Below are positions 22,619 through 53,229 of a DNA stretch of 64,000 bases, piece after piece; position 1 is the first letter of the stretch; each line of letters begins with the position of its first letter. Made by a program: the position numbers and the translations under genes. Below the pieces are notes generated by a model. It searched no databases, was not told the origin of the DNA, and saw only the letters and a list, made by a program, of their open reading frames with translations. Origin of the DNA: Ziziphus jujuba (taxonomy: Eukaryota > Streptophyta > Magnoliopsida > Rosales > Rhamnaceae); NCBI RefSeq assembly GCF_031755915.1, contig NC_083383.1:25460501-25524500 (forward strand). The letters run 5' to 3'.

Positions 22619-23755
22619 AATGATGTGATTCCGCTCGAGCCCGCTCAACCGATAACCCGCTGGGGTGCTGACTCAACATGGATGAAGACTAGGCCAATCA
22701 CAAGAGCTCAAATTAAGAGATTTAAGGACAACTTGGGAGTATTTATACAGGGGGTAATCAATCTCAACAGAGCTTGTCCATACTTGAAGATACAAAGCCT
22801 ATTCTAAGCATCCAAGTGGTGGAAGCCGATACGGACCCGGGTGACAGTTTTAGTACATTTTTGGAGTCCGGGAAGCATGAAATGGTTCCAATGCTTTATG
22901 GGTTCAATAAATATGCCTAAGAGGTCATGGAATCAAGTTAAAGAAGCCTCAAATGCAATCAAAAAGGGCTTGTACGGACAGCATCAACAATTTGGCTGAA
23001 TTTGCTGTATTGCTTGCTGGCTTTACTGTATTTTATTGTATTAGCCTTTTCTTATTTTTCCAAGCATGGGCAACGTGTGGGACTTCGTATTCAGCTTATT
23101 TGGCATCCTAAAAAGAATCTAGAAGCTGATTTGAAGCTCAAATAGGTCAAAGATTGATCAAAGTCAACTTGATCAAAAGGCTAGCATTTTTAGTTTCCTA
23201 ATTTGTTTTTACTTTTTGTTTTAGGAAACTACCATTACTTTTTGGCTTTTATTTATTTATTTTCTGGAAAAATAACTTTAGGAAGGTTTTTATTTTATTC
23301 TTTCCATTGTAAATTAATTAATTCCTAATTTAATATAAATGAATTAATTAATCAAACTTAGATTAGGAAAGGAAGTATAGTTTCGGCCAACTAGGTTTCT
23401 TTATGTGTGGTGGCCGATTTTCTTTATGTTCTAGGGTTTTATTTCATGGCTTTATAGCCTATTTAAAGACTTATTTTTCAATAAGAATACAACTTTGATT
23501 TGATTGAGAAAATACTTGTGAGATTAATTATCTCTTTGTTCTTTGAGAACACCTAAAACACCATTAGAGAATTGGTTGTTTTAGCTTGACTTATCAATAG
23601 GTTTTCCATCCCCTATTGTGGCGTCTACATTATACCAAGGTTTCTAACCACAGGTTGGTTAGGGGTTGAGGTCCATTCCATTAGAACTTGAACTTAATTG
23701 AGATCCGGGCTAATATAATACGGATTTAGGAGCAGGTCGTCCTAGGTTCGTATCA
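22619..23755 (+). repeat. 5' LTR of the non-autonomous element
   Basis: It starts AATGATGTG and ends GTTCGTATCA, 1137 bp, the same length as the 3' LTR. Its first 190 bp carry the same frame that serves as the C-terminal end of the mosaic ORF in the 3' LTR. Confidence 0.88.
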
Positions 23756-27797: not shown

Positions 27798-28934
27798 AAT
27801 GATGTGATTCCGCCCGAGCCCGTTCAACCGATAACCCGCTGGGGTGCTGACTCGACATGGATGAAGACTAGGCCAATCACAAGAGCTCAAATTAAGAGAT
27901 TTAAGGAAAACCTGGGGGTCTTTATACAGGGGGTAATCAATCTCAACAGAGCTTGTCCATACTTGAAGATACAAAGCCTATCCTAAGCATCCAAGTGGTG
28001 GAAGCCGATACGGACCCGGATGACGGTTTTGGTACATTTTTGGAGTTCGAGAAGCATGAAATGGTTCCAATACTTTATGGGTTCAATAAATATGCCTAAG
28101 AGGTCATGGAATCAAGTTAAATCAGCCTCAAATGCAATCAAAAAGGGCTTGTACGGACAACATCAACAATTTGGCCGAATTTGCTGTATTGCTTGCTGGC
28201 TTTACTGTATTTTACTGTATTAGCCTTTTCTTATTTTTCCAAGCATGGGCAACATGTGGGACTTCGTATTCAGCTTATTTGGCATCCTAAAAAGAATCTA
28301 GAAGCTGATTTGAAGCTCAAATAGGTCAAAGATTGATCAAAGTTAACTTGATCAAAAGGCTAGCATTTTTAGTTTCCTAATTTGTTTTTACTTTTTGTTT
28401 TAGGAAACTACCATTACTTTTTGGCTTTTATTTATTTATTTTCTGGACAAATAACTTTAGGAAGGTTTTTATTTTATTCTTTCCATTGTAAATTAATTAA
28501 TTCCTAATTTAATATAAAGGAATTAATTAATCAAACTTAGATTAGAAAAGGAAGTATAGTTTCGGCCAACTAGGTTTCTTTATGTGTGGTGGCCGGTTTT
28601 CTTTATGTTCTAGGGTTTTATTTCGTGGCTTTGTAGCCTATTTAAAGGCTTATTTTTCAATAAGAATACAACTTTGATTTGATTGAGAAAATACTTGTGA
28701 GATTAATTATCTCTTTGTTCTTTGAGAACACCTAAAACACCATTAGAGAATTGGTTGTTTTAGCTTGACTTATCAATAAGTTTTCCATCCCCTATTGTGG
28801 CGTCTACATTATACCAAGGTTTCTAACCACAGGTTGGTTAGGGGTTGAGGTCCATTCCATTAGAACTTGAACTTAATTGAGATCCGGGCTAATATAATAC
28901 GGGTTTAGGAGCAGGTCGTCCTAGGTTCGTATCA
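27798..28934 (+). repeat. 3' LTR of the non-autonomous element
   Basis: 1137 bp, starting AATGATGTG and ending GTTCGTATCA, followed by target duplication ATAGTC. The mosaic ORF reads into it as far as 27986. Confidence 0.88.
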
Positions 28935-29211
28935 ATAGTCTTTCCTTAAGTGTTTCGGCAGTGCCCAAAGGAATCACATTCCATCCCTTTAAATAGCCCA
29001 ATATAATATCAATTACAGAGTCTACAATCAATAAGAAAACTATCTAGGCTTGAAGGTTTTTGGTAATGAATTTTACCATTGCCAACTGTCCACTGTTCAG
29101 AACTCTGAATGTGACAACCTCTCTAGTAATGACCATTGCTACTGCTCACTACCAACTATTCGAGGCCCTAAGTGTGACTATCTTTCTAAGACATATTGTC
29201 TCTAGGACTAT
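28935..29211 (-). pseudogene. Second piece of the old nested element (gag C-terminal part)
   Basis: It continues the piece ending at 22618 across the insertion. On the minus strand near 28990 a zinc-knuckle-like stretch (ECDSFGHCRN) is visible. The rest is the poorly conserved Gag linker. It begins with ATAGTC and ends with ACTAT, the duplications of two different insertions. Confidence 0.55.
29207..29211 (+). other. Target-site duplication ACTAT (left)
   Basis: ACTAT here and at 32203-32207 flanks the solo LTR. Confidence 0.9.
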
Positions 29212-32202
29212 TGTAACACCCCGTCCCAAATCGCACCGGAATCCGTGCACGTTGACCGAGGTTGACCGTTGACCGTTGACCGAAGGGGGTCAAAAGTTGA
29301 CTTTTAGACTCGGTGGGAATTTCGAGATGACTAGGGCACCCTGGCGAAGTGCACGATGCCACGAGTTCGTAGACTGGTAGCACGTCGAAAACGGAGCTAC
29401 GGTTTGAAAGTTATGGACGAAACAAGTTGCGGTCCAAACTGTCCAAGGGGTGCCGGAGTTGACTTTTTGTTTATGGGGAATTGAGCTTTGACTCATGCAT
29501 GGTTGTGAAGTGCTCGTCGATACGAGTTCACAGACTAGCGGCACGCTCAAAAGGGACATCCGGTTAAAAAGTTATGGACGTTTGAAGTTTACCGGATACC
29601 GTATTATTTTAATATTTTTTTTTGGGTCGGTGAACAGTGAAACACCACGTGTCAGTTTCTGATTGGTCCACGTGGCATGAACAGTGTCATGCAGGGGTTT
29701 TATTTGTTAAAACACTCGGGGAAGAGAGAGAAAGAGAGAGAAGAGAGAGAAAGAGAGAGAGGAGAGAGAAAGAGAGAGAGAGAGAGCCACCGCCGGCCAC
29801 CGGATTTTGCCACTGTTCCGGCCGAGTTACTGTACACGCGCCGGACAGAAAGCTTTCCCACCTCATTTCTGGCAAAACCTCCAAATTTCACGGCGAACGG
29901 CCGCCGGACGCGCCCGGATCGGACGTCCGAAGTTTGGCGGCGATTTTTCCCCTCCACCGCCGGCCACCGCGAATCGGCACTGTTCCGGCCATTTTCCGGC
30001 CACACGCGCCTGACAGCCTTGATCCTCTCCTCAAGTCCGGCCTACCCACCAAAAATCACGGCCATCGGACCACCGACGCGCCGGGATCGGAGCGTTTTCC
30101 GGCGAGGGGTCGAAAATCTTCAAACGGTGATTTCTCCGCCGTTCGACCTCCGTTTTGCTCACCGTCGGTCCCGTTGGATTGCTCTCCTCACGATCTACAA
30201 ATCTGCAAAATTTCACAGCAAACGGCCACTGTCGGAAATTACTGTTCCGGCGACGGTTGCCGGTGACGTGGCGGCCCGCCGGAAATTACTGTTCCGGCGA
30301 GTACCCGAAAATTCCGGCCAGCTCCAGTCCGCAGTGTTCGACCTCCTGAACCCAAATCCGACTTCCGTTTCCACCAATTCGCGACGGTTTGGGAGAATTG
30401 CAGAGCCGAAACCCGAAAAGCTTCCCGATAAAATTCCGACCCCGTCGGGTACGATCATCGGAAATTAAGACCGGATCTGTGATTAGCATCACTCGAGCTT
30501 CGATTCGGTATATAATTCGTAAATTTTAGTTATCGTTTGTGTTTTGACCCCCCGGGTACCGGGTATTATTTACCCGAATAAAATATTAATTTATTTGACT
30601 GTCTGTGAATTTTGTTCTAGGAGCACCGGTGAGTCGTAGAATTGATCCCGTAGTGGATCATGGGTTAATTGCGTGCTCCAGGTGAGTGACCCACCTTCAA
30701 ATTAATTTTGGGGAATTTAATTGATGAATATATTATGTGTGAATTAAATATTTGGAATTTAATTTCTATGTGCCAAATATTTATTGGATTTATTGTAGAA
30801 TTATTTATGAATTTATTGGATTTAAGAAAATGCGAATTCTACAAATTTATGCCGTGTGGAATTATTTTATGGTTTTGAGGATTTTGAAATTGGTGTGGTT
30901 TTAATGGTAAATTGGGCACGATTTGATTTTTAAATATTTCAAGGAAAATATTTGGTTATGTTGGTGATTTCAATTTTTATGAAATATGCCCATAAAATAT
31001 TATGGGATTTGATTATGATATTTCGAGAAATTATTTATGCTTGGAAAAAATGTGGATATTTGAATTGATGGATTTGAAAGTTGGTGGATTTGAAAATCAT
31101 GGAATTTATGGCATTGATTACAAAGAAATTGTGGGAAAATTCCCGGTTCAAGCGGATGGATTATGCCCGCTATGCTTATGAAAAATGTGAAATTTGTTTT
31201 ATGATTTAAATTTATGGATTTTATAATTTTTAGATGCACCGTGCACGTACTGGTGTTCTGATTATGTGATATGGTATATGTGATATGGTTAGTGTGCACA
31301 CGGTTATGATTAGCGCGCAGGTGGGTGTGAGTAGCGCGCGGTTGATATTATGAGGGTGTCCTGTGGATGCCATCGGAGAGGGCGGCCACCCCCCTTTGGC
31401 CGGGACACCAGGTTAGCAGCGGCGCTGTGGGACGCCACGCGACCGTATGCCGGTTTCTTTCTATAACCTCCTGTCTGGCGGTACCTTGGGACGCTGGGTA
31501 CTGTTGGCGCCACTGGTATATAGTGGGTGCATCAAATGATTTTCAGAACTGTGTTTTAAAAATAAAATGTTTGGAAACTGAATTGGAATTAAAAATATAA
31601 TTGTTACCGCTTCTGGTATTTAATTGATGTCTTGGTTTTCGGGGAATATGGATAAAGGGTTTTGTGAAATTGTTTTAAAAGGGGAACCTTTCCAACTGAG
31701 AGAATTGTAAGGGTTTTGAGAGAAAATATTATTTCCAAATAATTATTATTTATACTTATTACTGTGATATTATATGGTATAGTAGTAGGGTCGCTCACTG
31801 AGATGATTAGCATCTCACACTTTTAAATTCCGTTCCTCTAGGTACCAGGTTGTCGGTGTTCATTCGGAGCGGACTTGATCTTCCTCGCTGTTTTAGTTCG
31901 GCAGTACCCGTTTATTCTTTTATTGCAGTTGTAATATTTCTTTCACTCTTGTTGTATTTATTATGCACTGGATTACTGTATTTATTTTTTTTAAGTGCTG
32001 CAAGTTGTGGAATCGATTTGTAGTACTGTGGGAGGAATAAGGGGATAATTTTAGAAGTGTGTTTTCAGTGCAGGGAATTTTGTGGTAAGTAAATCTCTTA
32101 GGGGAGGCTCTGCCGGATTTTCCGTTGGAAGATTCGGTAGGGTTTCCCTGGGATCAGGGCTGTCTAGGGTTCCGGGGAAGGAATTCTGGACGGGTCCTGA
32201 CA
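29212..32202 (+). repeat. Solo LTR A of the Tekay-type family
   Basis: It starts TGTAACACCCC and ends GGTCCTGACA, 2991 bp, with perfect ACTAT duplications. An element here was therefore reduced to one LTR by recombination between its LTRs. The first half resembles LTRs B and C, the end resembles D and E, and the 30541-30681 segment matches neither. Regulatory content: W-box cluster 29252-29292, twin G-boxes 29646-29651 and 29669-29674, GA-type purine tract 29721-29786, TATATAA 30509-30515. Confidence 0.93.
30621..30681 (+). other. 61-nt exon-like cassette with nested stems, variant A
   Basis: It is bounded by TTCTAG before and GTGAGT after, like an exon. The outer stem GGAGCAC (30620-30626) pairs with GTGCTCC (30673-30679). 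The inner stem TGATCC (30643-30648) pairs with GGATCA (30655-30660). The sequence differs from the other four LTRs, but length and pairing plan are the same. A third small hairpin, AGGTG with CACCT, follows. Confidence 0.65.
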
Positions 32203-32284
32203 ACTATGGCTGCCTCCTTGGAATCCTTTACTGCTTGATGTCCTTTAGAAAAAAACTATCTCTCTTGTACGACCCCTAACTAGG
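32203..32284 (-). pseudogene. Third piece of the old nested element
   Basis: These 82 bases lie between two insertions, begin with ACTAT and end with CTAGG. They are too short and decayed to show Gag motifs alone. Position between clear Gag pieces assigns them. Confidence 0.5.
32280..32284 (+). other. Target-site duplication CTAGG (left)
   Basis: CTAGG here and at 43113-43117 flanks the complete element. Confidence 0.93.
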
Positions 32285-32324
32285 TGTAACACCCCGTCCC
32301 GAATCGCACCGGAATCCGTGCACG

Positions 32325-32381
32325 TTGACCGAGGTTGACCGTTGACCGTTGACCGAAGGGGTCAAAGTTGACTTTTTGACT
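32325..32381 (+). promoter_or_regulatory. W-box cluster at the LTR start
   Basis: TTGACC at 32325, 32335, 32342 and 32349, GGTCAA (its complement) at 32360, and TTGACT at 32368 and 32376: seven cores in 57 bp. TTGAC[C/T] is the WRKY-factor site. The same cluster begins every LTR of this family here (29252, 40120, 43460 and 50283 regions). Confidence 0.65.
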
Positions 32382-32716
32382 CGGTGGGAATTTCGAGATG
32401 ACTAGGGCACCGTGGCGAAGTGCACGATGCCACGAGTTCGTAGACTGGTAGCACGTCGAAAACGGAGCTACGGTTTGAAAGTTATGGACGAAACAAGTTG
32501 CGGTCCAAACTGTCCAAGGGGTGCCGGAGTTGACTTTTTGTTTATGGGGAATTGAGCTTTGACTCATGCATGGTTGTGAAGTGCTCGTCGATACGAGTTC
32601 ACAGACTAGCGGCACGCTCAAAACGGACATCCGGTTAAAAAGTTATGGACGTTTGAAGTTTACCGGATACCGTATTATTTTAATATTTTTTTTTGGGTCG
32701 GTGAACAGTGAAACAC

Positions 32717-32745
32717 CACGTGTCAGTTTCTGATTGGTCCACGTG
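32717..32745 (+). promoter_or_regulatory. Twin G-boxes with CCAAT-type motif
   Basis: CACGTG at 32717-32722 and 32740-32745, with GATTGG between them. CACGTG is bound by plant bZIP and bHLH factors. The pair is kept in all five LTRs, whereas the GATTGG is changed to GAGTGG in LTRs D and E. Confidence 0.6.
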
Positions 32746-33567
32746 GCATGAACAGTGTCATGCAGGGGTTTTATTTGTTAAAACACTCGGGGAAGAGAGA
32801 GAAAGAGAGAGAAGAGAGAGAAAGAGAGAGAGGAGAGAGAAAGAGCCACCGCCGGCCACCGGATTTTGCCACTGTTCCGGCCGAGTTACTGTACACGCGC
32901 CGGACAGAAAGCTTTCCCACCTCATTTCCGGCAAAACCTCCAAATTTCACGGCGAACGGCCGCCGGACGCGCCCGGATCGGACGTCCGAAGTTTGGCGGC
33001 GATTTTTCCCCTCCACCGCCGGCCACCGCGAATCGGCACTATTCCGGCCGATAAACAGTACACGCGCCTGACAGCCTTGATCCTCTCCTCAAGTCCGGCC
33101 TACCCACCAAAAATCACGACCATCGGACCACCGACGCGCCGGGATCGGAGCGTTTTCCGGCGAGGGGTCAAAAATCTTCAAACGGTGATTTCTCCGCCGT
33201 CCGACCTCCGTTTTGCTCACCGTCGGTCCCGTTGGATTGCTCTCCTCACGATCTACAAATCTGCAAAATTTCACAGCAAACGGCCACCGTCGGAAATTAC
33301 TGTTCCGGCGACGGTTGCCGGTGACGTGGCGGCCCGCCGGAAATCACTGTTCCGGCGAGTACCCCGAAAATTCCGGCCAGCTCCAGTCCGCAGTGTTCGA
33401 CCTCCTGAACCCAAATCCGACTTCCGTTTCCACCAATTCGCGACGGTTTGGGAGAATTGCAAAGCCGAAACCCGAAAAGCTTCCCGATAAAATTCCGACC
33501 CCGTCGGGTACGATCATCGGAAATTAAGACCGGATCTGTGATTAGCATCACTCGAGCTTCGATTCGG

Positions 33568-33574
33568 TATATAA
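33568..33574 (+). promoter_or_regulatory. Likely LTR TATA box
   Basis: TATATAA at the change from GC-rich to AT-rich sequence, in the context CGGTATATAATTCG. It is conserved in all five LTRs and is the best candidate for the U3 promoter. The start site itself cannot be read from sequence. Confidence 0.6.
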
Positions 33575-33680
33575 TTCGTAAATTTTAGTTATCGTTTGGT
33601 GTTCGCTCCTCGGGTACCCATTTGGGGATTACCCGAATAAAATATTAATATTTGTGGTTTTGGTACTGTGGATGTTTTAG

Positions 33681-33741
33681 GTGCACGTGCAAGTAGCGGA
33701 GTCGATCCTGCGGAGGATCTTGATTGAGATACGTGCACAAG
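33681..33741 (+). other. 61-nt exon-like cassette with nested stems, variant B
   Basis: It is bounded by TTTTAG before and GTGAGT after. The outer stem GTGCACGT (33681-33688) pairs with ACGTGCAC (33731-33738). The inner stem GATCCT (33704-33709) pairs with AGGATC (33714-33719) around loop GCGG. A third hairpin, AAGGTG with CACCTT, follows. Function unknown: a small exon, a packaging or dimerisation signal, or a translation control structure are all possible. Confidence 0.65.
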
Positions 33742-34368
33742 GTGAGTGACCCACCTTCAAATTAATTTTGGGGAATTTAATTGATGAATATATTATGTGT
33801 GAATTAAATATTTGGAATTTAATTTCTATGTGCCAAATATTTATTGGATTTATTGTAGAATTATTTATGAATTTATTGGATTTAAGAAAATGCGAATTCT
33901 ACAAATTTATGCCGTGTGGAATTATTTTATGGTTTTGAGGATTTTGAAATTGGTGTGGTTTTAATGGTAAATTGGGCACGATTTGATTTTCAAATATTTC
34001 AAGGAAAATATTTGGTTATGTTGGTGATTTCAATTTTTATGAAATATACCCATAAAATATTATGGGATTTGATTATGATATTTCGAGAAATTATTTATGC
34101 TTGGAAAAAATGTGGATATTTGAATTGATGGATTTGGGAGTTGGTGGATTTGAAAATCATGGGATTTATGGTATTAATTATAAGGAAATTGTGGAGAATT
34201 TCCCGGTTCAAGCGGATGGATTATGCCCGCTATGTTTATGAAAAATGTGAAATTTGTTTTATAATTTAAATTGTGGATTTTATGATTTTTAGATGCACCG
34301 TGCACGTACTGGTGTTCTGATTATGTGATATGGTATATGTGATATGGATATTGTGCACACGGATATGA

Positions 34369-34590
34369 TTAGCGCGCAGGTGGGTGTGAGTAGCGCGCAG
34401 GTGATATTATGAGGGTGTCCTGTGGATGCCATCGGAGAGGGTGGCCACCCCCCATTGGCCGGGACACCAGGTTAGCAGCGGCGCAGTGGGACGCCACGCG
34501 ACCGTATGCCGGTTTCTTTCTATAACCTCCTGTCTGGCGGTACCTTGGGACGCTGGGTACTGTTGGCGCCACTGGTATATAGTGGGTGCA
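34369..34590. other. Conserved GC-rich island in the LTR
   Basis: A GC-rich block within the AT-rich downstream half of the LTR, with a stem GGTGTCC and GGACACC and repeated GCGCGCAG motifs. Both strands show an open frame of 67-77 codons (for example + 34426-34659 and - 34572-34369) that is intact in all five LTRs. High sequence identity alone could explain that. The counterpart in LTR A is about 31310-31530. Confidence 0.5.
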
Positions 34591-35318
34591 TCAAATGATT
34601 TTCAGAACTGTGTTTTAAAAATAAAATGTTTGGAAACTGTATTGGAATTAAAAATATAATATTACTGTTCTGGTATTTAATTGATGTCTTGGTTTTCGGG
34701 AAATATGAATAAAGGGTTTTGTGAAAATGTTTTAAAAGGGGAACCTTTCCAACTGAGAGAATTGTAAGGGTTTTGAGAGACATTATTATTTCCAAATAAT
34801 TATTATTTATATACTTATTACCGTGGTATGATAGTGTAGAGTAGTAGGGTCGCTCACTGAGATGATTAGCATCTCACACTCTTAAATTCCGTTCCTCTAG
34901 GTACCAGGTTGTCGGTGTTCACTCGGAGCGGACTCGATCTTCCTCGCTGTATTTGTTCGTGCAGTACCTTGTTCTTCTTTTACTGCAGTTGTAATATTTC
35001 GTTCACTTTTGCTGTATTCTGTATTTTGTAGTACTTCATAAAGCTCTGTATACTGTATGGGACACTTATGTATTTGTATTGCACTGGATTACTGTATTTT
35101 TATTTTGGAGTGCTGAAATTTGTGGAACCAGTTCGTCGTACTGTGGGAGGAATAAGGGAACAATTATAGAAGTGTGTTTTCAGTGCAGGAAATTTTGTGG
35201 TAAGTCCATCCCTTAGGGGAGGTTCTGCCGGATCTTCCACAGAAGGGTCCGGTAGGGTTTCCCTGGGATCAGGGCTTGTCTAGGGTTCCGGTGGGAAACT
35301 TTGGACGGGTCCTGACAG

Positions 35319-35331
35319 TTGGTATCAGAGC
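35319..35331 (+). other. Primer-binding site, initiator tRNA-Met
   Basis: TTGGTATCAGAGC starts two bases after the 5' LTR, the standard minus-strand primer site of many plant LTR elements. Confidence 0.92.
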
Positions 35332-35461
35332 ATAGGTTCTTGTAATCCTAAGGGACTGTGCATTGCTGTACAACCCATCCGTAAATTCCTTCCTTTTGTA
35401 ATCGTGCTTAAGTGTCCCTGTTTCTAAACTCTTGTTTGTTTCTTCAGTTTAATCGACTACG

Positions 35462-38400
35462 ATGAGTCGGCGGGACACACGTAGAACTCGGGAACGCTCG
35501 GCTGAGAGTTCCGGGAGTCGATCAAGCCTTAGAGATCTGGTCTCTCAGCTAACTAGAGCCTTAGGAGGTTCAAGCTCTAGTAACCGATCCGTGGATCAGG
35601 CTCGACGTTTAGGAGCCGTGGAGTTCGATGGAAGCCAAGGCCCAGCTGCAGCCTTGAAGTGGCTATCCAGCATGGAGAAAATCTTGGAAGAGGGGATGCA
35701 GTGCCCCGATGAGGATATGGTGAGGATTTCTGGGTTCATGTTAGAGGGAGACGCCCGGAAGTGGTGGCAAATGGAGAAGACCCGCAGAAGGCATACGTGG
35801 GACCAGTTCAAGATTGCCTTCTCTACTGAGTTCTGTCCTCCTGCCTACCGTGAGGCGAGAAGGAGAGAGTTCGAGGGACTGCGCCAGGGAAACATGACGG
35901 TGACAGAGTACGAGAGGAGGTTCCGGGAGCTGTCAGAGTTCTGCATGCACTTGATTCCCGACGATCACGCGAAGAAGGTGAGGTTCATAGACGGGTTGAA
36001 CGAGAGCATCGGCTACACCCTTTCTGGGTCAGTACACCCCACCTATCAGTCCGCCAGGGATGCAGCGCTCGAGCTAGAGAGACAGGCGGAGATACACAGA
36101 CCCTCGAGGCGCAGACCGTTCGAAGGTTCGTACAGCGGGGTACCTCGACAGGGGGCATCTAAGAAGAGTCATAGTTCAGGCTCAGACAGTGGTGGGTTCA
36201 GCCCTCGAGGCAGATTTCAGAGGAGAGGCGGCTATCGTATGCCCCAACCAGCGCGCCATTCCATCAGCGGCGGCACGAGCTCATATCAGCACTCTGGGTT
36301 TAGCCCCAAGCCATTCTGCAGACGTTGCAATAGAGCACACCATGGGATTTGCCAGTTTGAGGGTGTGTGCTTTCAGTGTGGACAGGCGGGACATATTAAG
36401 AGAAATTGCCCTTATGGAGAGGCGGGAGTGTTAGGGGTGAGCCCACCATCACATCAGGCCAGTGGATCGCGGGGTCAGAGTTCCCGAGGGAGTTATGCAG
36501 TAGGAGGTTCATCGGGATCAGTCCCACAGCCTGTTGGACCGAGCAGGGGTAGAGGACGGAGGCCCCAGCAGACAGGGCAGGGTCGAGTGTTTGCGATGAC
36601 CCAGCAGGAGGCCCTAGCTACACCGGACGTCGTGGCAGGTACGTTGAATATATTTGGTAATGATGCATTAGTACTTATAGACCCGGGAGCAACACATTCA
36701 TTTATCTCCAAGGAATTCGTCACTCGGGTCGGTATGACCCCTACTTCTTTAGAATGTCTAGTAGAGATAGCCACTCCTGCAGGAGAATCCTTGTGGCCTA
36801 GCCAGTTAATCAAGGAATGTTTCTTCTGCATCGAAGATCAAGTGATGGAGGCGGACTTGATCCTGTTGGATCTGTCCGGACTTGATGTAATTTTGGGCAT
36901 GGATTGGTTGGCAAGGAACCATGCATCTGTAGACTGTTTCAGCAAGGAAGTTACATTCAGGAGGCCAGGGTTGCCAGAAGTAGTATTCCGTGGAGGAGTT
37001 GGAAGGCCCTTACCGAGGTTGATATCTACCCTTACCGCCAAGAAGCTACTGAATAAAGGTTGCCAGGGGTATTTGGCTCATGTGATAGATACCCGAGTAA
37101 GTGGGGTCAGGTTGGAAGACATGCCCGTTGTGAGGGATTTCCCGGACGTGTTTCCTGAGGAGTTACCAGGATTGCCTCCGGAAAGGGAAGTTGACTTTCC
37201 CATTGAATTGATTCCAGGCACCGTGCCTATTTCTCTACCACCGTATCGGATGGCTCCAGCGGAGTTAAGGGAGCTAAAGGTCCAGTTGCAAGATTTGGTA
37301 GATAAGGGGTTTATTAGACCAAGTATATCGCCGTGGGGAGCCCCAGTTTTGTTTGTAAAGAAAAAGGATGGTAGTCTAAGGCTGTGTATAGACTACCGAC
37401 AACTTAATAAGGTCACCATTCCTAATCGCTATCCGTTGCCAAGGATAGATGATCTATTCGACCAACTCCAAGGTGCCAAGGTGTTCTCCAAGATCGACTT
37501 GAGGTCGGGATACCATCAGTTAAGGATCCGAGAGTCGGACATTCCTAAGACTGCCTTTAGGACGAGGTACGGACATTATGAATTCCTAGTGATGTCGTTC
37601 GGACTCACCAATGCCCCAGCAGCTTTCATGGACTTGATGAATAGGGTGTTTCGTCCGTACTTGGATCATTTTGTCATTGTATTTATCGATGACATTCTGA
37701 TCTATTCAAGGAGCCAAGAAGAGCACGTGAGGCATTTGAAGAGAGTGCTCCAAACTCTAAGACAGCATCAGCTATATGCTAAATTCGACAAGTGTGAATT
37801 CTGGTTGAATCAAGTGGGTTTTCTCGGACATATCGTGTCGGCAGAAGGTATCTATGTGGACCCTGATAAGGTAAAGGCAGTGTTGAGTTGGGAGCGCCCT
37901 ACCACTGTGAGGGAGGTACGAAGTTTTCTTGGATTAGCGGGTTACTACCGTCGTTTTATTGAAGGGTTTTCAAGGACTGCCGGGCCGCTTCATAGATTGA
38001 CCCGAAAGAATGTTGAATTTAGTTGGACGGACAGGTGTGAACAGAGTTTTCAGGAGTTGAAGCAAAAGTTGACATCCGCACCTGTTTTAACGTTACCTGA
38101 TGGGAATGAAGGTTTTGAAGTTTATTGTGATGCATCCCATCAAGGGTTGGGTTGCGTGCTAATGCAGAATCAAAGGGTGGTAGCGTATGCATCTCGGCAA
38201 TTGAAGCAGCACGAACAGAATTACCCTACGCACGACTTAGAATTGGCGGCGGTAGTCTTTGCTCTAAAGAAGTGGAGGCACTACTTGTATGGGGCCACGT
38301 GCCAAATCTATACCGACCACAAGAGCCTCAAGTATATTTTCACTCAGAAGGAGTTAAATATGAGGCAAAGGCGATGGATGGAGTTGTTAAAGGATTATGA

Positions 38401-40036
38401 CTGTGTGATTGACTATCACCCGGGTAAGGCGAATGTAGTGGCAGATGCTTTGAGTAGGAAGGCTACTGGATCCCTTGCTCACATCCAAGTCATCCAACTA
38501 CCTCTCATGGTGGAGTTGAAGAAGATGGGGGTGTTAATGCATATGCATCCTTCAGGAGTTCTCATGGCTAGCTTCCAGGTACGACCGGTGTTGGTGGATC
38601 GTATAGTAGAGACCCAAATGGAAGATCCTAAGTTGAGGACAATTAAGGGCAAGGTACAAGAAGGTCTTGATCCGGAATTTTCCATAAGGAGGGATGGAGC
38701 CCTCGTGTATAAAGGACGACTTTGCGTTCCGGATATCCCAGGACTCAAGAAGGAGATTTTGGAGGAGGCGCATAGCTCGATGTATGCGATGCATCCTGGG
38801 AGTACCAAGATGTATCGGACGCTTGTTAAGTATTATTGGTGGATTGGTATGAAGAGAGAAGTGGCAGACTTTGTATCAAAGTGTTTGATTTGTCAACAAG
38901 TGAAAGCAGAAAGACAGAAGCCTTCGGGACTACTCCAACCTTTACCGATTCCCGTGTGGAAGTGGGAAGAACTCAACATGGACTTCGTATTCAAGCTTCC
39001 TTCCACACCTAGAAGGTACGACGGCATTTGGGTAATCATTGATCGTCTCACCAAGTCGGCACACTTCCTACCGGTACGAGAACGTTTTTCGCCCGAGAAG
39101 TTAGCCCAGTTGTTCGTGCAACGCATTGTAAGTCTTCATGGAGTACCGTTAGCCATCGTCTCCGATCGAGATCCGCGCTTTACTTCACGACTATGGCGAA
39201 AGTTGGCTGATGCACTAGGAGCAAGACTTAACTACAGCACCGCTTTTCACCCACAATCTGATGGACAAGCAGAGCGCACAATCCAGACATTAGAAGACAT
39301 GCTAAGGTCTTGCATTATGCAATTTAGCGGTAGCTGGGATGAACAACTGCCACTGATAGAGTTTGTCTACAACAACAGTTATCAAGCGAGTACTGGAATG
39401 TCCCCGTATGAAGCTTTATATGGGAGGCAGTGTCGGACACCTTTGTGTTGGAGTGAGGTAGGAGAAGAGAGGTTCCTTGCAACAACTAATGCGGTCGGAT
39501 CTGAGTATTTAAGGATGACCTTGGACAAGGTGAAGATCATTAGGGATCGATTGAAGGTTGCCCAAGATAGACAGAAGAGTTACGCCGATGTGCGTAGAAA
39601 GGATTTGGAATTCGAGGTAGGAGATTGGGTATTCCTAAAACTATCTCCATGGAAAGGAGTAGTACGTTTTGGACGACGAGGTAAGTTGGGTCCTCGTTAT
39701 ATTGGGCCTTACGAGGTTACGGAGAGGATTGGCCCGGTGGCGTATAGGTTGGTGTTACCGGAAGAGCTAGCTCGAGTACACAACGTGTTTCATGTGTCGA
39801 TGCTACGGAAGTATATTGCAGACCCTTCGCACGTACTCGAGAGTCCGGATATAGAGATAAGGGAAGATCTTTCGTATGTGGAGCAGCCAGTACAGATTTT
39901 GGATCGCGAGGAACGCACGCTACGCAACAAGACTATTCCTCTAGTTAAGGTCTTATGGCGGAACCACTTGGTCGAGGAAGCAACGTGGGAACCCGAAGCA
40001 CAGATGCGTGAGCAGTACCCGTATCTGTTCCAGTGA
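35462..40036 (+). CDS. gag-pol: Gag-Pol polyprotein, Tekay-type chromovirus, intact
   Basis: This 1524-residue polyprotein should make virus-like particles, copy the element's RNA and integrate the DNA. It starts at ATG 35462, 130 bp after the primer-binding site. Gag covers about 50-210 ([11 protein letters not shown] at 92-102). A degenerate C/H motif at 286-297 precedes the zinc knuckle [14 protein letters not shown] (303-316). Protease has [10 protein letters not shown] with Asp407. Reverse transcriptase covers about 560-790 with Asp679 and FIDD (741-744). RNase H has Asp890, Glu927, Asp952 and Asp995. Integrase has a zinc finger (His1104, His1111, Cys1141, Cys1144) and D-D-E at Asp1174, Asp1235 and Glu1271, with the classic 60- and 35-residue gaps. 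A C-terminal chromodomain (about 1471-1523, ending [19 protein letters not shown]) probably guides integration to heterochromatin. No stop or frameshift was found, so it may be active. Confidence 0.97.
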
Positions 40037-40080: not shown

Positions 40081-43000
40081 TGTAACACCCCGTCCCGAAT
40101 CGCACCGGAATCCGTGCACGTTGACCGAGGTTGACCGTTGACCGTTGACCGAAGGGGTCAAAGTTGACTTTTTGACTCGGTGGGAATTTTGAGATGACTA
40201 GGGCACCGTGGCGAAGTGCACGATGCCACGAGTTCGTAGACTGGTAGCACGTCGAAAACGGAGCTACGGTTTGAAAGTTATGGACGAAACAAGTTGCGGT
40301 CCAAACTGTCCAAGGGGTGCCGGAGTTGACTTTTTGTTTATGGGGAATTGAGCTTTGACTCATGCATGGTTGTGAAGTGCTCGTCGATACGAGTTCACAG
40401 ACTAGCGGCACGCTCAAAACGGACATCCGGTTAAAAAGTTATGGACGTTTGAAGTTTACCGGATACCGTATTATTTTAATATTTTTTTTGGGTCGGTGAA
40501 CAGTGAAATGCCACGTGTCAGTTTCTGATTGGTCCACGTGGCATGAACAGTGTCATGCAGGGGTTTTATTTGTTAAAACACTCGGGGAAGAGAGAGAAAG
40601 AGAGAGAAGAGAGAGAAAGAGAGAGAGGAGAGAGAAAGAGCCACCGCCGGCCACCGGATTTTGCCACTGTTCCGGCCGAGTTACTGTACACGCGCCGGAC
40701 AGAAAGCTTGCCCACCTCATTTCCGGCAAAACCTCCAAATTTCACGGCGAACGGCCGCCGGACGCGCCCGGATCGGACGTCCGAAGTTTGGCGGCGATTT
40801 TTCCCCTCCACCGCCGGCCACCGCGAATCGGCACTATTCCGGCCGATAAACAGTACACGCGCCTGACAGCCTTGATCCTCTCCTCAAGTCCGGCCTACCC
40901 ACCAAAAATCACGACCATCGGACCACCGACGCGCCGGGATCGGAGCGTTTTCCGGCGAGGGGTCAAAAATCTTCAAACGGTGATTTCTCCGCCGTCCGAC
41001 CTCCGTTTTGCTCACCGTCGGTCCCGTTGGATTGCTCTCCTCACGATCTACAAATCTGCAAAATTTCACAGCAAACGGCCACCGTCGGAAATTACTGTTC
41101 CGGCGACGGTTGCCGGTGACGTGGCGGCCCGCCGGAAATCACTGTTCCGGCGAGTACCCCGAAAATTTCGGCCAGCTCCAGTCCGCAGTGTTCGACCTCC
41201 TGAACCCAAATCCGACTTCCGTTTCCACCAATTCGCGACGGTTTGGGAGAATTGCAAAGCCGAAACCCGAAAAGCTTCCCGATAAAATTCCGACCCCGTC
41301 GGGTACGATCATCGGAAATTAAGACCGGATCTGTGATTAGCATCACTCGAGCTTCGATTCGGTATATAATTCGTAAATTTTAGTTATCGTTTGGTGTTCG
41401 CTCCTCGGGTACCCATTTGGGGATTACCCGAATAAAATATTAATATTTGTGGTTTTGGTACTGTGGATGTTTTAGGTGCACGTGCAAGTAGCGGAGTCGA
41501 TCCTGCGGAGGATCTTGATTGAGATACGTGCACAAGGTGAGTGACCCACCTTCAAATTAATTTTGGGGAATTTAATTGATGAATATATTATGTGTGAATT
41601 AAATATTTGGAATTTAATTTCTATGTGCCAAATATTTATTGGATTTATTGTAGAATTATTTATGAATTTATTGGATTTAAGAAAATGCGAATTCTACAAA
41701 TTTATGCCGTGTGGAATTATTTTATGGTTTTGAGGATTTTGAAATTGGTGTGGTTTTAATGGTAAATTGGGCACGATTTGATTTTCAAATATTTCAAGGA
41801 AAATATTTGGTTATGTTGGTGATTTCAATTTTTATGAAATATACCCATAAAATATTATGGGATTTGATTATGATATTTCGAGAAATTATTTATGCTTGGA
41901 AAAAATGTGGATATTTGAATTGATGGATTTGGGAGTTGGTGGATTTGAAAATCATGGGATTTATGGTATTAATTATAAGGAAATTGTGGAGAATTTCCCG
42001 GTTCAAGCGGATGGATTATGCCCGCTATGTTTATGAAAAATGTGAAATTTGTTTTATAATTTAAATTGTGGATTTTATGATTTTTAGATGCACCGTGCAC
42101 GTACTGGTGTTCTGATTATGTGATATGGTATATGTGATATGGATATTGTGCACACGGATATGATTAGCGCGCAGGTGGGTGTGAGTAGCGCGCAGGTGAT
42201 ATTATGAGGGTGTCCTGTGGATGCCATCGGAGAGGGTGGCCACCCCCCATTGGCCGGGACACCAGGTTAGCAGCGGCGCAGTGGGACGCCACGCGACCGT
42301 ATGCCGGTTTCTTTCTATAACCTCCTGTCTGGCGGTACCTTGGGACGCTGGGTACTGTTGGCGCCACTGGTATATAGTGGGTGCATCAAATGATTTTCAG
42401 AACTGTGTTTTAAAAATAAAATGTTTGGAAACTGTATTGGAATTAAAAATATAATATTACTGTTCTGGTATTTAATTGATGTCTTGGTTTTCGGGAAATA
42501 TGAATAAAGGGTTTTGTGAAAATGTTTTAAAAGGGGAACCTTTCCAACTGAGAGAATTGTAAGGGTTTTGAGAGACATTATTATTTCCAAATAATTATTA
42601 TTTATATACTTATTACCGTGGTATGATAGTGTAGAGTAGTAGGGTCGCTCACTGAGATGATTAGCATCTCACACTCTTAAATTCCGTTCCTCTAGGTACC
42701 AGGTTGTCGGTGTTCACTCGGAGCGGACTCGATCTTCCTCGCTGTATTTGTTCGTGCAGTACCTTGTTCTTCTTTTACTGCAGTTGTAATATTTCGTTCA
42801 CTTTTGCTGTATTCTGTATTTTGTAGTACTTCATAAAGCTCTGTATACTGTATGGGACACTTATGTATTTGTATTGCACTGGATTACTGTATTTTTATTT
42901 TGGAGTGCTGAAATTTGTGGAACCAGTTCGTCGTACTGTGGGAGGAATAAGGGAACAATTATAGAAGTGTGTTTTCAGTGCAGGAAATTTTGTGGTAAGT

Positions 43001-43112
43001 CCATCCCTTAGGGGAGGTTCTGCCGGATCTTCCACAGAAGGGTCCGGTAGGGTTTCCCTGGGATCAGGGCTTGTCTAGGGTTCCGGTGGGAAACTTTGGA
43101 CGGGTCCTGACA
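40081..43112 (+). repeat. 3' LTR C
   Basis: 3032 bp, almost identical to LTR B. Differences seen by eye: TTTCGAG to TTTTGAG near 40189, one T fewer near 40490, ACACC to ATGCC near 40509, CTTTCCC to CTTGCCC near 40709, and ATTCC to ATTTC near 41166. Followed by CTAGG. Confidence 0.95.
41476..41536 (+). other. 61-nt exon-like cassette, LTR C
   Basis: Identical to the 33681-33741 cassette, with the same flanking AG and GTGAGT. Confidence 0.65.
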
Positions 43113-43419: not shown

Positions 43420-46406
43420 TGTAACACCCCGTCCCGAATCGCACCGGAATCCGTGCACGTTGACCGAGGTTGACCGTTGACCGTTGACCGAAGGGGGTCA
43501 AAAGTTGACTTTTTGACTCGGTGAGAATTTCGAGATGACTAGGGCACCGTGGTGAAGTGCACGATGCCACGAGTTCGTAGACTGGTAGCACGTCGAAAAC
43601 GGAGCTACGGTTTGAAAGTTATGGACGAAACAAGTTGCGGTCCAAACTGTCCAAGGGGTGCCGGAGTTGACTTTTTGTTTATGGGGAATTGAGCTTTGAC
43701 TCATGCATGGTTGTGAAGTGCTCGTCGATACGAGTTCACAGACTAGCGGCACGCTCAAAACGGACATCCGGTTAAAAAGTTATGGACGTTTGAAGTTTAC
43801 CGGATACCGTATTATTTTAATATTTTTTTTGGGTCGGTGAACAGTGAAACGCCACGTGTCAGCTTCTGAGTGGTCCACGTGGCATGAACAGTGTCACACA
43901 GGGTTTTAATTTTGAAAAACTCTCGGGGAAGAGAGAGAAAGAGAGAGAAGAGAGAGAAAGAGAGAGAGGAGAGAGAAAGAGAGAAAGAGGACCCGCCGGC
44001 CGCCGGCCATTTTCACGTTTTTCCGGCCTAGTTACTGTACACGCGCCGGCCAGCCAGATTGCCCACCTCATTTCCGGCAAAACCTCCAAATTTCACGGCG
44101 AACGGCCGCCGGACGCGCCCGGATCGGACGTCCGAAGTTTGGCGGCGATTTTTCCCCTCCACCGCCGGCCACCGCGAATCGGCACTATTCCGGCCGATAA
44201 ACAGTACACGCGCCATACACCCAGCATCCTCTCCTCAAGTCCGGCCTACCCACCAAAAATCACGACCATCGGACCACCGACGCGCCGGGATCGGAGCGTT
44301 TTCCGGCGAGGGGTCGAAAATCTTCAAACGGTGATTTCTCCGCCGTCCGACCTCCGTTTTGCTCACCGTCGGTCCCGTTGGATTGCTCTCCTCACGATCT
44401 ACAAATCTGCAAAATTTCACAGCAAACGGCCACCGTCGGAAATTACTGTTCCGGCGACGGTTGCCGGTGACGTGGCGGCCCGCCGGAAAGTACTGTTCCG
44501 GCGAGTACCCCGAAAATTCCGGCCAGCTCCAGTCCGCAGTGTTCGACCTCCTGAACCCAAATCCGACTTCCGTTTCCACCAATTCGCGACGGTTTGGGAG
44601 AATTGCAAAGCCGAAACCCGAAAAACTTCCCGATAAAATTCCGACCCCGTCGGGTACGATCATCGGAAATTAAGACCGGATCTGTGATTAGCATCACTCG
44701 AGCTTTGATTCGGTATATAATTCGTAAATTTTAGTTATCGTTTGGTGTTCGCTCCCCGGGTACCCATTTGGGGATTACCCGAATAAAATATTAATATTTG
44801 TGGTTTTGGTACTGTGGATGTTTTAGGTGCACGTGCAAGTAGCGGAGTCGATCCTGCGGAGGATCTTGATTGAGATACGTGCACAAGGTGAGTGACCCAC
44901 CTTCAATTTAATTTTGGGAAATTTAATTGGTGAATATATTATGTGTGATTTAAATATTTGGAATTTAAATTCCTATGTGCCAAATATTTATTGGATTTAT
45001 TTTGGAATTATTTATGAATTTATTGGATTTAAGAAAATGCGAATTCTACAAATTTATGCCATGTGAAATTAATTTATGGTTTTGAGGATTTTGAAATTGG
45101 TGTGGTTTTAATATTAAATTGGGCACGATTTGAATTTCAAATATTTCAAGGAAAATATTTGGTTATGTTGGTGATTTCAATTTTTATAAAATATGCCCAT
45201 GGAATATTTTGAGATTTGATTATTATATTCGAGAATTATTTATGCTTGGAAAAAAAATGTGGATATTTGAATTGATGGATTTGGGAGTTGGTGGATTTGA
45301 AAATCATAGAATTTATGGTATGGATTATAAGGAAATTGTGGAGAATTTCCCGGTTCAAGCGGATGGATTATGCCCGCTATGCTTACGAAAAATATGAAAT
45401 TTGTTTTATGATTTAAATTATGGATTTTATGATTTTTAGATGCACCGTGCACGTACTGGTGTTCTGATTATGTGATATGGTATATGTGAGATGGTTAGTG
45501 TGCACACGGTTGTGATTAGCGCGCAGGTGGGTGTGAGTAGCGCGCGGTTGATATTATGAGGGTGTCCTGTGGATGCCATCGGAGAGGGCGGCCACCCCCC
45601 ATTGGCCGGGACACCAGGTTAGCAGCGGCGCAGTGGGACGCCACGCGACCGTATGCCGGTTTCTTTCTATAACCTCCTGTCTGGCGGTACCTTGGGACGC
45701 TGGGTACTGTTGGCGCCACTGGTATATAGTGGGTGCATCAAATGATTTTCAGAACTGTGTTTTAAAAATAAAATGTTTGGAAACTGAATTGGAATTAAAA
45801 ATATGATTGTTACCGCTTCTGGTATTTAATTGATGTCTTGGTTTTCGGGGAATATGGATAAAGGGTTTTGTGAAATTGTTTTAAAAGGGGAACCTTTCCA
45901 ACTGAGTGAATTGTAAGGGTTTTGAGAGAAAATATTATTTCCAAATAATTATTATTTATACTTATTACTGTGATAATATATGGTATAGTAGTAGGGTCGC
46001 TCACTGAGATGATTAGCATCTCACACTCTTAAATTCCGTTCCTCTAGGTACCAGGTTGTCGGTGTTCACTCGGAGCGGACTTGATCTTCCTCGCTGTTTT
46101 AGTTCGGCAGTACCCTGTTATTCTTTTATTGCAGTTGTAACATTTCTTTCACTCTTGTTGTATTTATTTTGTACTGGATTACTGTTTTTAATTTTTTTAA
46201 GTACTGCAATTTGTGGAACCAATTTGTAGTTTGTGGGAGGAATAAGGGGATATTTTTGAAGTGTGTTTTCAGTGCAGGTAAATTTGTGGTAAGTAAATCC
46301 CTTAGGGGAGGTGCTGCCGGATTTTCCGTTGGAAGGTTCGGTGGTATTTCCCTGGGATCAGGGCTGTCTAGGGTTCCGGGGAAGGAATTCTGGACGGGTC
46401 CTGACA
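43420..46406 (+). repeat. 5' LTR D
   Basis: 2987 bp, TGTAACACCCC to CCTGACA. It differs from LTR B/C in the upstream part (ACAGGGTTTTAATTTTGAAA) and in the end, which resembles LTR A. Likely TATA at about 44713-44719. Confidence 0.95.
44827..44887 (+). other. 61-nt exon-like cassette, LTR D
   Basis: Same sequence as in LTR B, with the same AG and GTGAGT borders. Confidence 0.65.
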
Positions 46407-46407
46407 G

Positions 46408-46420
46408 TTGGTATCAGAGC
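46408..46420 (+). other. Primer-binding site, initiator tRNA-Met
   Basis: TTGGTATCAGAGC starts two bases after LTR D. Confidence 0.92.
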
Positions 46421-50242: not shown

Positions 50243-53229
50243 TGTAACACCCCGTCCCGAATCGCACCGGAATCCGTGCACGTTGACCGAGGTTGACCGT
50301 TGACCGTTGACCGAAGGGGGTCAAAAGTTGACTTTTTGACTCGGTGAGAATTTCGAGATGACTAGGGCACCGTGGTGAAGTGCACGATGCCACGAGTTCG
50401 TAGACTGGTAGCACGTCGAAAACGGAGCTACGGTTTGAAAGTTATGGACGAAACAAGTTGCGGTCCAAACTGTCCAAGGGGTGCCGGAGTTGACTTTTTG
50501 TTTATGGGGAATTGAGCTTTGACTCATGCATGGTTGTGAAGTGCTCGTCGATACGAGTTCACAGACTAGCGGCACGCTCAAAACGGACATCCGGTTAAAA
50601 AGTTATGGACGTTTGAAGTTTACCGGATACCGTATTATTTTAATATTTTTTTTGGGTCGGTGAACAGTGAAACGCCACGTGTCAGCTTCTGAGTGGTCCA
50701 CGTGGCATGAACAGTGTCACACAGGGTTTTAATTTTGAAAAACTCTCGGGGAAGAGAGAGAAAGAGAGAGAAGAGAGAGAAAGAGAGAGAGGAGAGAGAA
50801 AGAGAGAAAGAGGACCCGCCGGCCGCCGGCCATTTTCACGTTTTTCCGGCCTAGTTACTGTACACGCGCCGGCCAGCCAGATTGCCCACCTCATTTCCGG
50901 CAAAACCTCCAAATTTCACGGCGAACGGCCGCCGGACGCGCCCGGATCGGACGTCCGAAGTTTGGCGGCGATTTTTCCCCTCCACCGCCGGCCACCGCGA
51001 ATCGGCACTATTCCGGCCGATAAACAGTACACGCGCCATACACCCAGCATCCTCTCCTCAAGTCCGGCCTACCCACCAAAAATCACGACCATCGGACCAC
51101 CGACGCGCCGGGATCGGAGCGTTTTCCGGCGAGGGGTCGAAAATCTTCAAACGGTGATTTCTCCGCCGTCCGACCTCCGTTTTGCTCACCGTCGGTCCCG
51201 TTGGATTGCTCTCCTCACGATCTACAAATCTGCAAAATTTCACAGCAAACGGCCACCGTCGGAAATTACTGTTCCGGCGACGGTTGCCGGTGACGTGGCG
51301 GCCCGCCGGAAAGTACTGTTCCGGCGAGTACCCCGAAAATTCCGGCCAGCTCCAGTCCGCAGTGTTCGACCTCCTGAACCCAAATCCGACTTCCGTTTCC
51401 ACCAATTCGCGACGGTTTGGGAGAATTGCAAAGCCGAAACCCGAAAAACTTCCCGATAAAATTCCGACCCCGTCGGGTACGATCATCGGAAATTAAGACC
51501 GGATCTGTGATTAGCATCACTCGAGCTTTGATTCGGTATATAATTCGTAAATTTTAGTTATCGTTTGGTGTTCGCTCCCCGGGTACCCATTTGGGGATTA
51601 CCCGAATAAAATATTAATATTTGTGGTTTTGGTACTGTGGATGTTTTAGGTGCACGTGCAAGTAGCGGAGTCGATCCTGCGGAGGATCTTGATTGAGATA
51701 CGTGCACAAGGTGAGTGACCCACCTTCAATTTAATTTTGGGAAATTTAATTGGTGAATATATTATGTGTGATTTAAATATTTGGAATTTAAATTCCTATG
51801 TGCCAAATATTTATTGGATTTATTTTGGAATTATTTATGAATTTATTGGATTTAAGAAAATGCGAATTCTACAAATTTATGCCATGTGAAATTAATTTAT
51901 GGTTTTGAGGATTTTGAAATTGGTGTGGTTTTAATATTAAATTGGGCACGATTTGAATTTCAAATATTTCAAGGAAAATATTTGGTTATGTTGGTGATTT
52001 CAATTTTTATAAAATATGCCCATGGAATATTTTGAGATTTGATTATTATATTCGAGAATTATTTATGCTTGGAAAAAAAATGTGGATATTTGAATTGATG
52101 GATTTGGGAGTTGGTGGATTTGAAAATCATAGAATTTATGGTATGGATTATAAGGAAATTGTGGAGAATTTCCCGGTTCAAGCGGATGGATTATGCCCGC
52201 TATGCTTACGAAAAATATGAAATTTGTTTTATGATTTAAATTATGGATTTTATGATTTTTAGATGCACCGTGCACGTACTGGTGTTCTGATTATGTGATA
52301 TGGTATATGTGAGATGGTTAGTGTGCACACGGTTGTGATTAGCGCGCAGGTGGGTGTGAGTAGCGCGCGGTTGATATTATGAGGGTGTCCTGTGGATGCC
52401 ATCGGAGAGGGCGGCCACCCCCCATTGGCCGGGACACCAGGTTAGCAGCGGCGCAGTGGGACGCCACGCGACCGTATGCCGGTTTCTTTCTATAACCTCC
52501 TGTCTGGCGGTACCTTGGGACGCTGGGTACTGTTGGCGCCACTGGTATATAGTGGGTGCATCAAATGATTTTCAGAACTGTGTTTTAAAAATAAAATGTT
52601 TGGAAACTGAATTGGAATTAAAAATATGATTGTTACCGCTTCTGGTATTTAATTGATGTCTTGGTTTTCGGGGAATATGGATAAAGGGTTTTGTGAAATT
52701 GTTTTAAAAGGGGAACCTTTCCAACTGAGTGAATTGTAAGGGTTTTGAGAGAAAATATTATTTCCAAATAATTATTATTTATACTTATTACTGTGATAAT
52801 ATATGGTATAGTAGTAGGGTCGCTCACTGAGATGATTAGCATCTCACACTCTTAAATTCCGTTCCTCTAGGTACCAGGTTGTCGGTGTTCACTCGGAGCG
52901 GACTTGATCTTCCTCGCTGTTTTAGTTCGGCAGTACCCTGTTATTCTTTTATTGCAGTTGTAACATTTCTTTCACTCTTGTTGTATTTATTTTGCACTGG
53001 ATTACTGTTTTTAATTTTTTTAAGTACTGCAATTTGTGGAACCAATTTGTAGTTTGTGGGAGGAATAAGGGGATATTTTTGAAGTGTGTTTTCAGTGCAG
53101 GTAAATTTGTGGTAAGTAAATCCCTTAGGGGAGGTGCTGCCGGATTTTCCGTTGGAAGGTTCGGTGGTATTTCCCTGGGATCAGGGCTGTCTAGGGTTCC
53201 GGGGAAGGAATTCTGGACGGGTCCTGACA
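50243..53229 (+). repeat. 3' LTR E
   Basis: 2987 bp, nearly identical to LTR D, followed by TTATA. Confidence 0.95.
51650..51710 (+). other. 61-nt exon-like cassette, LTR E
   Basis: Same as in LTRs B, C and D, with AG and GTGAGT borders. Confidence 0.65.

Follow-up and report, generated by a model that had tools for sequence, protein, structure and literature searches.

A 61-nt segment with exact splice joins in the long terminal repeats of an abundant Ty3/gypsy family of Ziziphus jujuba

The window analyzed here, 64,000 nt of the Ziziphus jujuba genome (contig NC_083383.1, positions 25,460,501 to 25,524,500, forward strand), carries three insertions of one Ty3/gypsy retrotransposon family: a solo long terminal repeat (LTR A), element 1 (LTRs B and C) and element 2 (LTRs D and E). 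A sequence-only reading had described in every LTR a 61-nt segment between a T-rich stretch ending in AG and GTGAGT, and this segment was indeed found in all five. It is flanked by GT..AG introns on both sides and its exact joins to the neighbouring sequences are present in genomic copies, as for a spliceosomal exon; the copies without introns are reverse-transcribed spliced RNAs. The cassette is likely to be exon 2 of a spliced 5′ leader within the LTR of this high-copy element, of which the spliced RNA would be translated and the unspliced RNA would replicate. Below we give the map of this leader, in which L-numbers are individual genomic loci fetched from the same genome (C1, C3 and C4 below are contigs).

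32791..33566, + strand: exon 1 of LTR B, no ATG; 3′ border from spliced copies
33567..33680, + strand: intron 1 of LTR B, 114 nt, GTATAT..TTTTAG, exactly absent in spliced copies
30508..30620, + strand: intron 1 of LTR A, 113 nt, GTATATAA..TTCTAG, exactly absent in spliced copies
30621..30681, + strand: exon 2 of LTR A (version A), 61 nt; both junctions seen in the solo LTR L169
33681..33741, + strand: exon 2 of LTR B (version B), 61 nt, the same in LTRs C, D and E; intron-1-less copies carry this version too
41476..41536, + strand: exon 2 of LTR C
44827..44887, + strand: exon 2 of LTR D
51650..51710, + strand: exon 2 of LTR E
33742..34900, + strand: intron 2 of LTR B, 1159 nt, AAG/GTGAGT..CCTCTAG/GTACCAGG, exactly absent in L169
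30682..31841, + strand: intron 2 of LTR A, 1160 nt, borders from homology to the junctions in L169
34901..35199, + strand: exon 3 of LTR B; 5′ border from L169, 3′ border predicted (GTG/GTAAGT at 35200)
35200..35447, + strand: hypothetical intron 3, GTAAGT..TTTCTTCAG, proposed from splice-site scoring

Splice joins preserved in genomic copies

The intron-1-less join was searched as a 24-letter pattern with up to 2 mismatches, using the reversed pattern as a control, and was found at 111 places as against none for the control. Among the 100 of these 111 matches that were listed, 45 are exact, 28 carry one mismatch and 27 carry two, and nine of the last group look like unspliced variants (GGTATAC, GGTACAT, GGTGTAT). 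The 73 listed joins with at most one mismatch represent 59 clusters on 12 contigs. A total of 52 distinct places were read, comprising 39 of the 73 (30 exact and 9 with one mismatch, including L140) plus 13 two-mismatch places, including L135; for the other 34 the evidence is the match to the 24-letter pattern. At all 52 places intron 1 (111-114 nt, GT..AG) was exactly gone, in both exon 2 versions and in several subfamilies, with borders exact apart from the shared G, which as usual can be placed on either side of the join. In L014, an early copy, precisely the stretch from GTATATAA through the AG before the 61-nt segment is missing, while L183 carries a 1-nt deletion within exon 2 in addition to the loss of intron 1. 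GTGAGT after exon 2 is retained in 30 of 30 exact joins and in 17 of 20 more diverged joins, the other three reading ATGAGT.

With the intron in place, the anchor of this search is found at 3514 places (up to 2 mismatches), so that about 2-3% of the copies are without intron 1; a sample from C1 taken by the donor pattern alone gave 3 intron-1-less copies in 90 (L033, L135 and L140). In a tree built from 61 copies, roughly half of them picked as spliced, plain parsimony gives 8 changes in intron 1 state; under loss-only counting 17 losses are needed, a number that falls to 12 when branches with support below 0.9 are collapsed. By spacing, the exact joins include eight pairs and one triple lying 6-8 kb apart, a spacing that would arise if the loss passes to both LTRs of an element, i.e., if the intron lies between the transcription start and the primer-binding site (PBS) of the template.

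For the downstream border, exon 2 joined to GTACCAGG was found at one genomic place, L169, a 1581-bp solo LTR with the target-site duplication (TSD) GAGAA, in which a middle piece of exactly 61 nt links exon 1 directly to exon 3 and both introns are gone. The exon-like borders noted in the sequence-only reading are thus real splice junctions, the upstream one by many genomic spliced copies and the downstream one by a single copy. In these pattern searches the loss of intron 2 is far rarer than that of intron 1, and the count of one is a lower bound, because the pattern misses exon 3 starting with GTGCAAG or GTCCAGG. Alternative splicing of the leader, one of the roles suggested before, is borne out as far as splicing at both borders is concerned, but skipping of exon 2 is not: the join of exon 1 to exon 3 gave 0 matches at up to 2 mismatches among genomic copies with exon 3 starting like GTACCAGG. 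A direct splice from exon 2 to the acceptor before gag was also considered; the lone intron-2-less copy does not show it, an acceptor inside the LTR having been used there instead.

The TAG of the intron 2 acceptor is retained in 51 of the 52 rows in which it was located (59 scanned), with variable letters after it, and GTAAGT near the LTR end occurs in 39 of 58 best matches, the others being cut stretches or matches elsewhere; both scans favour similar sequences. Splice-site scoring of LTR B by a crude score ranked the donor at 33742 best and that at 35200 second, and the acceptor at 34988 best, that at 35447 second and the one used in L169 fourth. The exon 3 donor of LTR B is proposed from this score and from partial conservation. 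The acceptor at 35447 lies after the PBS, 14 nt before the gag-pol start at 35462, so that the hypothetical intron 3 would take out the LTR end and the PBS, joining exon 3 to the 14 nt before gag-pol. RNA from which the PBS was removed in this way could leave no ordinary copies, and their absence is therefore no test of this splice.

Two structural variants were seen at this region. In L038/L039 (C1:1550222-1550351) a 111-nt tandem duplication of exon 2 and the following 50 nt places two copies of exon 2 in one LTR, and in L002 (C4:25397014-25401598) an imprecise deletion leaves exon 1 fused to a point midway in intron 1, in contrast to the exact joins described above.

Composition of the leader and its likely processing

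The 5′ end of exon 1, i.e., the putative transcription start, was placed at 32791 from an ATG-free stretch and a GA-rich tract. LTR B has no ATG between 32761 and 33671, and similar gaps are present in LTRs A and D. Exon 1 (about 780 nt) contains 0 ATG in A, B and D as against about 5 in shuffled sequences, zero being reached, per 1000 shuffles, once for B, twice for A and four times for D, although the three LTRs are related and not independent. In LTR B, 39 ATG lie in intron 2 and 2 in exon 3. Across 59 loci the median of exon 1 is 1.3 ATG per kb, and the mean at the start of intron 2 is 36 per kb. The U content in LTRs A and B is 0.37-0.43 for introns 1 and 2 (intron 1 being computed with its border one base off) and 0.19-0.26 for exons 1 and 2; exon 1 is C-rich.

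Every LTR also holds an open reading frame (ORF) of 250-263 aa on the + strand (29677-30468, 32708-33490, 40503-41285, 43884-44636 and 50707-51459), overlapping the GC-rich exon 1. A coding function of these ORFs was considered and set aside: the LTR B ORF has no Pfam match, and the ORFs are probably not coding because they lie on the GC-rich exon 1 region and their frames shift among A, B and D. A possible promoter at 32714-32750, immediately before the ATG-free stretch, contains CCACGTGTC and CCACGTGGC, which we take to be G-box-like, and ATTGG (reverse CCAAT). Within intron 1 of both versions AATAAA (33636-33641) adjoins a possible branch-point stretch, ATATTAAT, and might serve as a poly(A) signal if intron 1 stayed unspliced.

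Taken together, the LTR primary RNA would carry three exons, separated by intron 1 (111-114 nt) and intron 2 (1.16 kb), with the 61-nt segment as the middle exon. The fossil copies show that intron 1 is spliced out exactly at GATTCG/GTATAT..TAG/G (many copies) and intron 2 exactly at AG/GTGAGT..TAG/GTACC (one copy), and that the spliced RNAs were now and then reverse-transcribed and inserted. The spliced form may be the translated mRNA, most upstream AUGs having been removed. The unspliced form would be the usual replication template, as most copies keep both introns though the splice sites persist. The PBS may be lost as well, through a third splice that uses the acceptor directly ahead of gag. 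With less weight, we speculate that the exon 2 hairpin and a small hairpin over the intron 2 donor might keep splicing incomplete; a hairpin that tunes splicing is possible. The more elaborate scheme, in which structured RNA sets the splicing level and the splice past the PBS yields a translatable mRNA that is never reverse-transcribed, so that two RNA pools exist and the intron-less fossils are a leak between them, seems to us rather unlikely.

Several observations weigh against the spliced-leader interpretation. The splicing of intron 2 is known from one copy; the search for exon 2 joined to gag did not find that join, its 16 matches all being unspliced acceptors; and the intron 1 donor (TCG/GTATAT) falls outside the 12 best-scoring donors. 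Intron 2 is not enriched in ATG (33742-35447 holds 41 as against 49 in shuffles), leaving the lack of ATG in exon 1 as the informative feature, and even there several diverged copies carry 6-12 ATG. Since ATG also occurs in exon 3 (1 in A, 2 in B) and in version A of exon 2 (one), the spliced leader is not wholly ATG-free. Exon 3, like the introns, is U-rich (0.40-0.42). Among 20 diverged loci the conservation of exon 2 (0.73) equals that of the body of intron 2 (0.73), with 0.66 for exon 1; the donor stretch is conserved in this set because most of the loci were chosen by it. To these is added the lack of significant covariation given in the next section.

The proposal that the intron-1-less copies are deletions, or descend from one spreading deleted master, could draw on the dependence among the 73 places, some of which belong to arrays or LTR pairs, so that they form 59 clusters. 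However, the same GT..AG borders recur in both exon versions and in many backgrounds, loss-only counting on the tree gives 12-17 events, L169 has lost two introns exactly, and the imprecise deletion in L002 looks different, all of which make this proposal highly improbable. That the two versions of exon 2 are recombinant modules, exchanged by template switching between subfamilies, so that a sharp block boundary and not selection explains the contrast with the surrounding LTR, we regard as an even chance: the divergent block of about 140 nt has abrupt borders in LTRs that are 92-94% identical, and each of the two versions is found with several different exon 1 backgrounds. Such an exchange is, however, compatible with the exon reading, and accounts only for the contrast pointed out in the sequence-only reading.

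Folding and covariation of the 61-nt exon

Nested outer and inner stems had been predicted for each LTR, and both versions of exon 2 fold as claimed; in LTR A the outer stem is formed by 30621-30626 with 30673-30678 and the inner stem by 30644-30648 with 30655-30659. The folding z-scores of the two versions are -2.0 and -2.75 for the 61 nt alone, and -1.25 and 0.0 with flanks (141 nt). Of the five LTRs, B and C belong to one insertion and D and E to another, and exon 2 is identical in all four, so that the window holds one comparison of two versions, A against B/C/D/E, and not five. These align without gaps and differ at 23 of 61 positions, which comprise 2 of the 22 letters in the 11 shared pairs as against 21 of the 39 letters elsewhere (hypergeometric P 4e-4). 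The statement that the primary sequences are quite different therefore applies to the loops and not to the stems: 10 of the 11 shared pairs are letter-identical and the single double change is at pair 2-57 (A-T against T-A). The comparison within the window is one of stem conservation with one compensated pair, not of broad covariation. Nor is the divergence confined to the 61 nt, as had been thought, because the divergent block, which has abrupt borders, already begins within intron 1, some 80 nt before the segment. A third hairpin directly after the segment does appear in the centroid fold (GGTG/CACC) and contains the 5′ splice site of intron 2, but this 80-nt stretch folds no better than its shuffles (z 0.2). 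A search of Rfam over window positions 29000-36000 gave two matches up to E 5, both below the gathering score and neither overlapping exon 2.

For the whole family, 150 segments (with 2 rearranged or spurious rows dropped), all from one genome, gave 79 distinct exons, of which 76 were used, excluding two with indels and one truncated duplicate. RNAalifold on the 76 exons recovered outer pairs 1-58 and 3-56 to 7-52 and inner pairs 24-39 to 28-35, and 4 of 200 column shuffles were as good. Paired columns change more slowly than the rest (P 0.004), an effect that comes from the inner stem (P 0.001); the outer stem is not slower (P 0.31). The inner stem, GATCC/GGATC, is near-invariant as a sequence, as are several unpaired columns, and since it hardly varies it is silent for or against pairing. 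Changes in the stems (22 of 61 columns) make up 15 of 86 on inner branches and 27 of 109 on end branches (Fisher P 0.23). Two pairs of the outer stem were exchanged in two steps each, 2-57 from A-T through T.T to T-A and 5-54 from A-T through A.C to G-C; other inner-branch changes include G-C/G-U at 1-58 and breaks such as C-G to C.T at 4-55. L056 has a double change at pair 4-55, and pairing at 2-57, 4-55 and 5-54 is broken in one subfamily, represented by 4 identical copies and several close to them.

The sequence-only reading had taken covarying stems as a sign of selected RNA structure and had proposed a formal covariation test. We ran such a test on the 76 exons with our own script in place of R-scape (G-test with average product correction against columns simulated on the tree, 60 simulations), and no structural pair covaried significantly, the best, 5-54, ranking 49 of 1653 with E 52. 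The top covarying pairs, 43-49 and 34-40 (E 0.12), look like linked subfamily letters. Pairing is kept at 0.884 in the outer stem against 0.790 expected (62 of 500 simulations as high) and at 0.982 in the inner stem against 0.889 expected (18 of 500), i.e., the share of kept pairs is weakly above the null. Covariation was accordingly abandoned as the main evidence, the stems being mostly unchanged, inner and end branches alike and no pair significant; the data are compatible with a hairpin but do not demonstrate one.

These results bear on two other explanations of the segment. A conserved hairpin selected for its structure (in packaging, dimerisation or translation control), with the splice-like borders secondary, would agree with the folding of both versions, the recovery of both stems by RNAalifold, the slower paired columns and the two compensations in the outer stem, but we consider it unlikely, given that the splice borders are demonstrated by genomic copies, that no structural pair reached significance, that the outer-stem columns are no slower than the rest, that the stems are spared alike on inner and end branches, and that one subfamily breaks three outer pairs. 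Alternatively, the inner GATCC/GGATC and the invariant letters nearby may be exonic splicing signals recognized by sequence, with incidental pairing, as the equal invariance of several unpaired columns and the lack of covariation would allow; the 88% retention of outer-stem pairing and the double change in L056 speak against it, and we give this explanation somewhat less than an even chance.

The family, related systems and meaning

The insertions in the window are as follows.

29212..32202, + strand: LTR A, solo, TSD ACTAT
32285..35317, + strand: LTR B, 5′ LTR of element 1, TSD CTAGG, with TGGTATCAGAGC directly after it
35462..40036, + strand: gag-pol ORF of element 1, in the Ty3/gypsy order gag-PR-RT-RH-INT, with a weak chromodomain match
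40081-43112: LTR C, partner of LTR B in element 1, TSD CTAGG
43420-46406: LTR D of element 2, TSD TTATA
50243-53229: LTR E of element 2, TSD TTATA

LTRs B and C are 99.8% identical and D and E 99.97%, as against 92-94% for the LTRs overall. Element 1 has the features of a Ty3/gypsy chromovirus, namely the gag-PR-RT-RH-INT order, TG..CA LTRs, a 5-bp TSD and a PBS, and we take TGGTATCAGAGC to be this PBS, of the tRNA-Met type; the match to the chromodomain (PF00385) is weak (E 8.6e-4, 19.6 bits against a cut-off of 25.1). The clade name Tekay is a label taken over from the sequence-only reading, and the family is placed here by its domain order and LTR features. It is very abundant, the donor pattern having 7234 genomic matches.

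In the internal part of element 2 (46407-50242) a gag fragment alone was seen, without the gag start of element 1, and 9 of 20 fetched post-LTR stretches (L152-L167) share this internal start and likewise do not have the element 1 gag start; element 2 and these nine apparently form a non-autonomous subfamily. Copies spaced regularly head-to-tail at about 6.3-6.5 kb (C1 at about 44.97-44.99 Mb, C3 at 12.18-12.19 Mb, and L072/L073) suggest tandem arrays with common LTRs. The window also contains inverted-repeat copies of another repeat (8929-9463 with 27935-28469, and 8957-9463 with 22756-23262).

As general background, the introns of Ogre and EVADE lie in the coding region, and the main splice donor of human T-lymphotropic virus 1 (HTLV-1), bovine leukaemia virus (BLV) and the foamy viruses lies in R. 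Unlike Ogre and EVADE, the present family has its introns in the LTR leader, and its spliced RNAs have left reverse-transcribed copies that can be seen in the genome. According to a review (PMC12786077), plant LTR elements are generally intron-less, with Ogre and EVADE as notable exceptions, and the splicing of these two makes subgenomic RNAs; they share with our family the presence of introns in a plant LTR element. For BARE1, a Ty1/copia element of barley, the report (PMC3735527) describes alternatively spliced RNA, with distinct RNAs for translation and replication, and an intron of 104 nt in the gag ORF that is more U-rich than its exon flanks. Both are plant LTR elements with a U-rich intron, and separate RNA pools would be shared as well, judging here from the ATG distribution and the intron retention. 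Unlike BARE1, however, the family described here is Ty3/gypsy, and its two introns and the mini-exon between them lie within the LTR, ahead of the PBS. A donor in or near the LTR leader and an unspliced RNA serving as the genome recall HTLV-1, BLV and the foamy viruses, and also the splice-donor domain of human immunodeficiency virus 1 (PMC4974535), to which the donor possibly lying beneath a small hairpin may likewise be compared. Unlike those retroviruses, a complete intron and the mini-exon lie inside each LTR, so that splicing leaves a heritable loss of the intron. Among the titles and abstract openings covered by a literature search, none described introns inside the LTR of a Ty3/gypsy element from a plant.

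The finding thus concerns a very abundant family with at least two introns in the LTR itself, as against the generally intron-less plant LTR elements of the review cited above (PMC12786077). LTR-driven transcription into host sequence could carry these splice donors along. The insertions of the family are a natural reporter of the RNA form that was reverse-transcribed, and the frequency with which spliced RNA enters replication is measurable from the genome sequence alone, as with the intron-marked Ty reporters of the laboratory.

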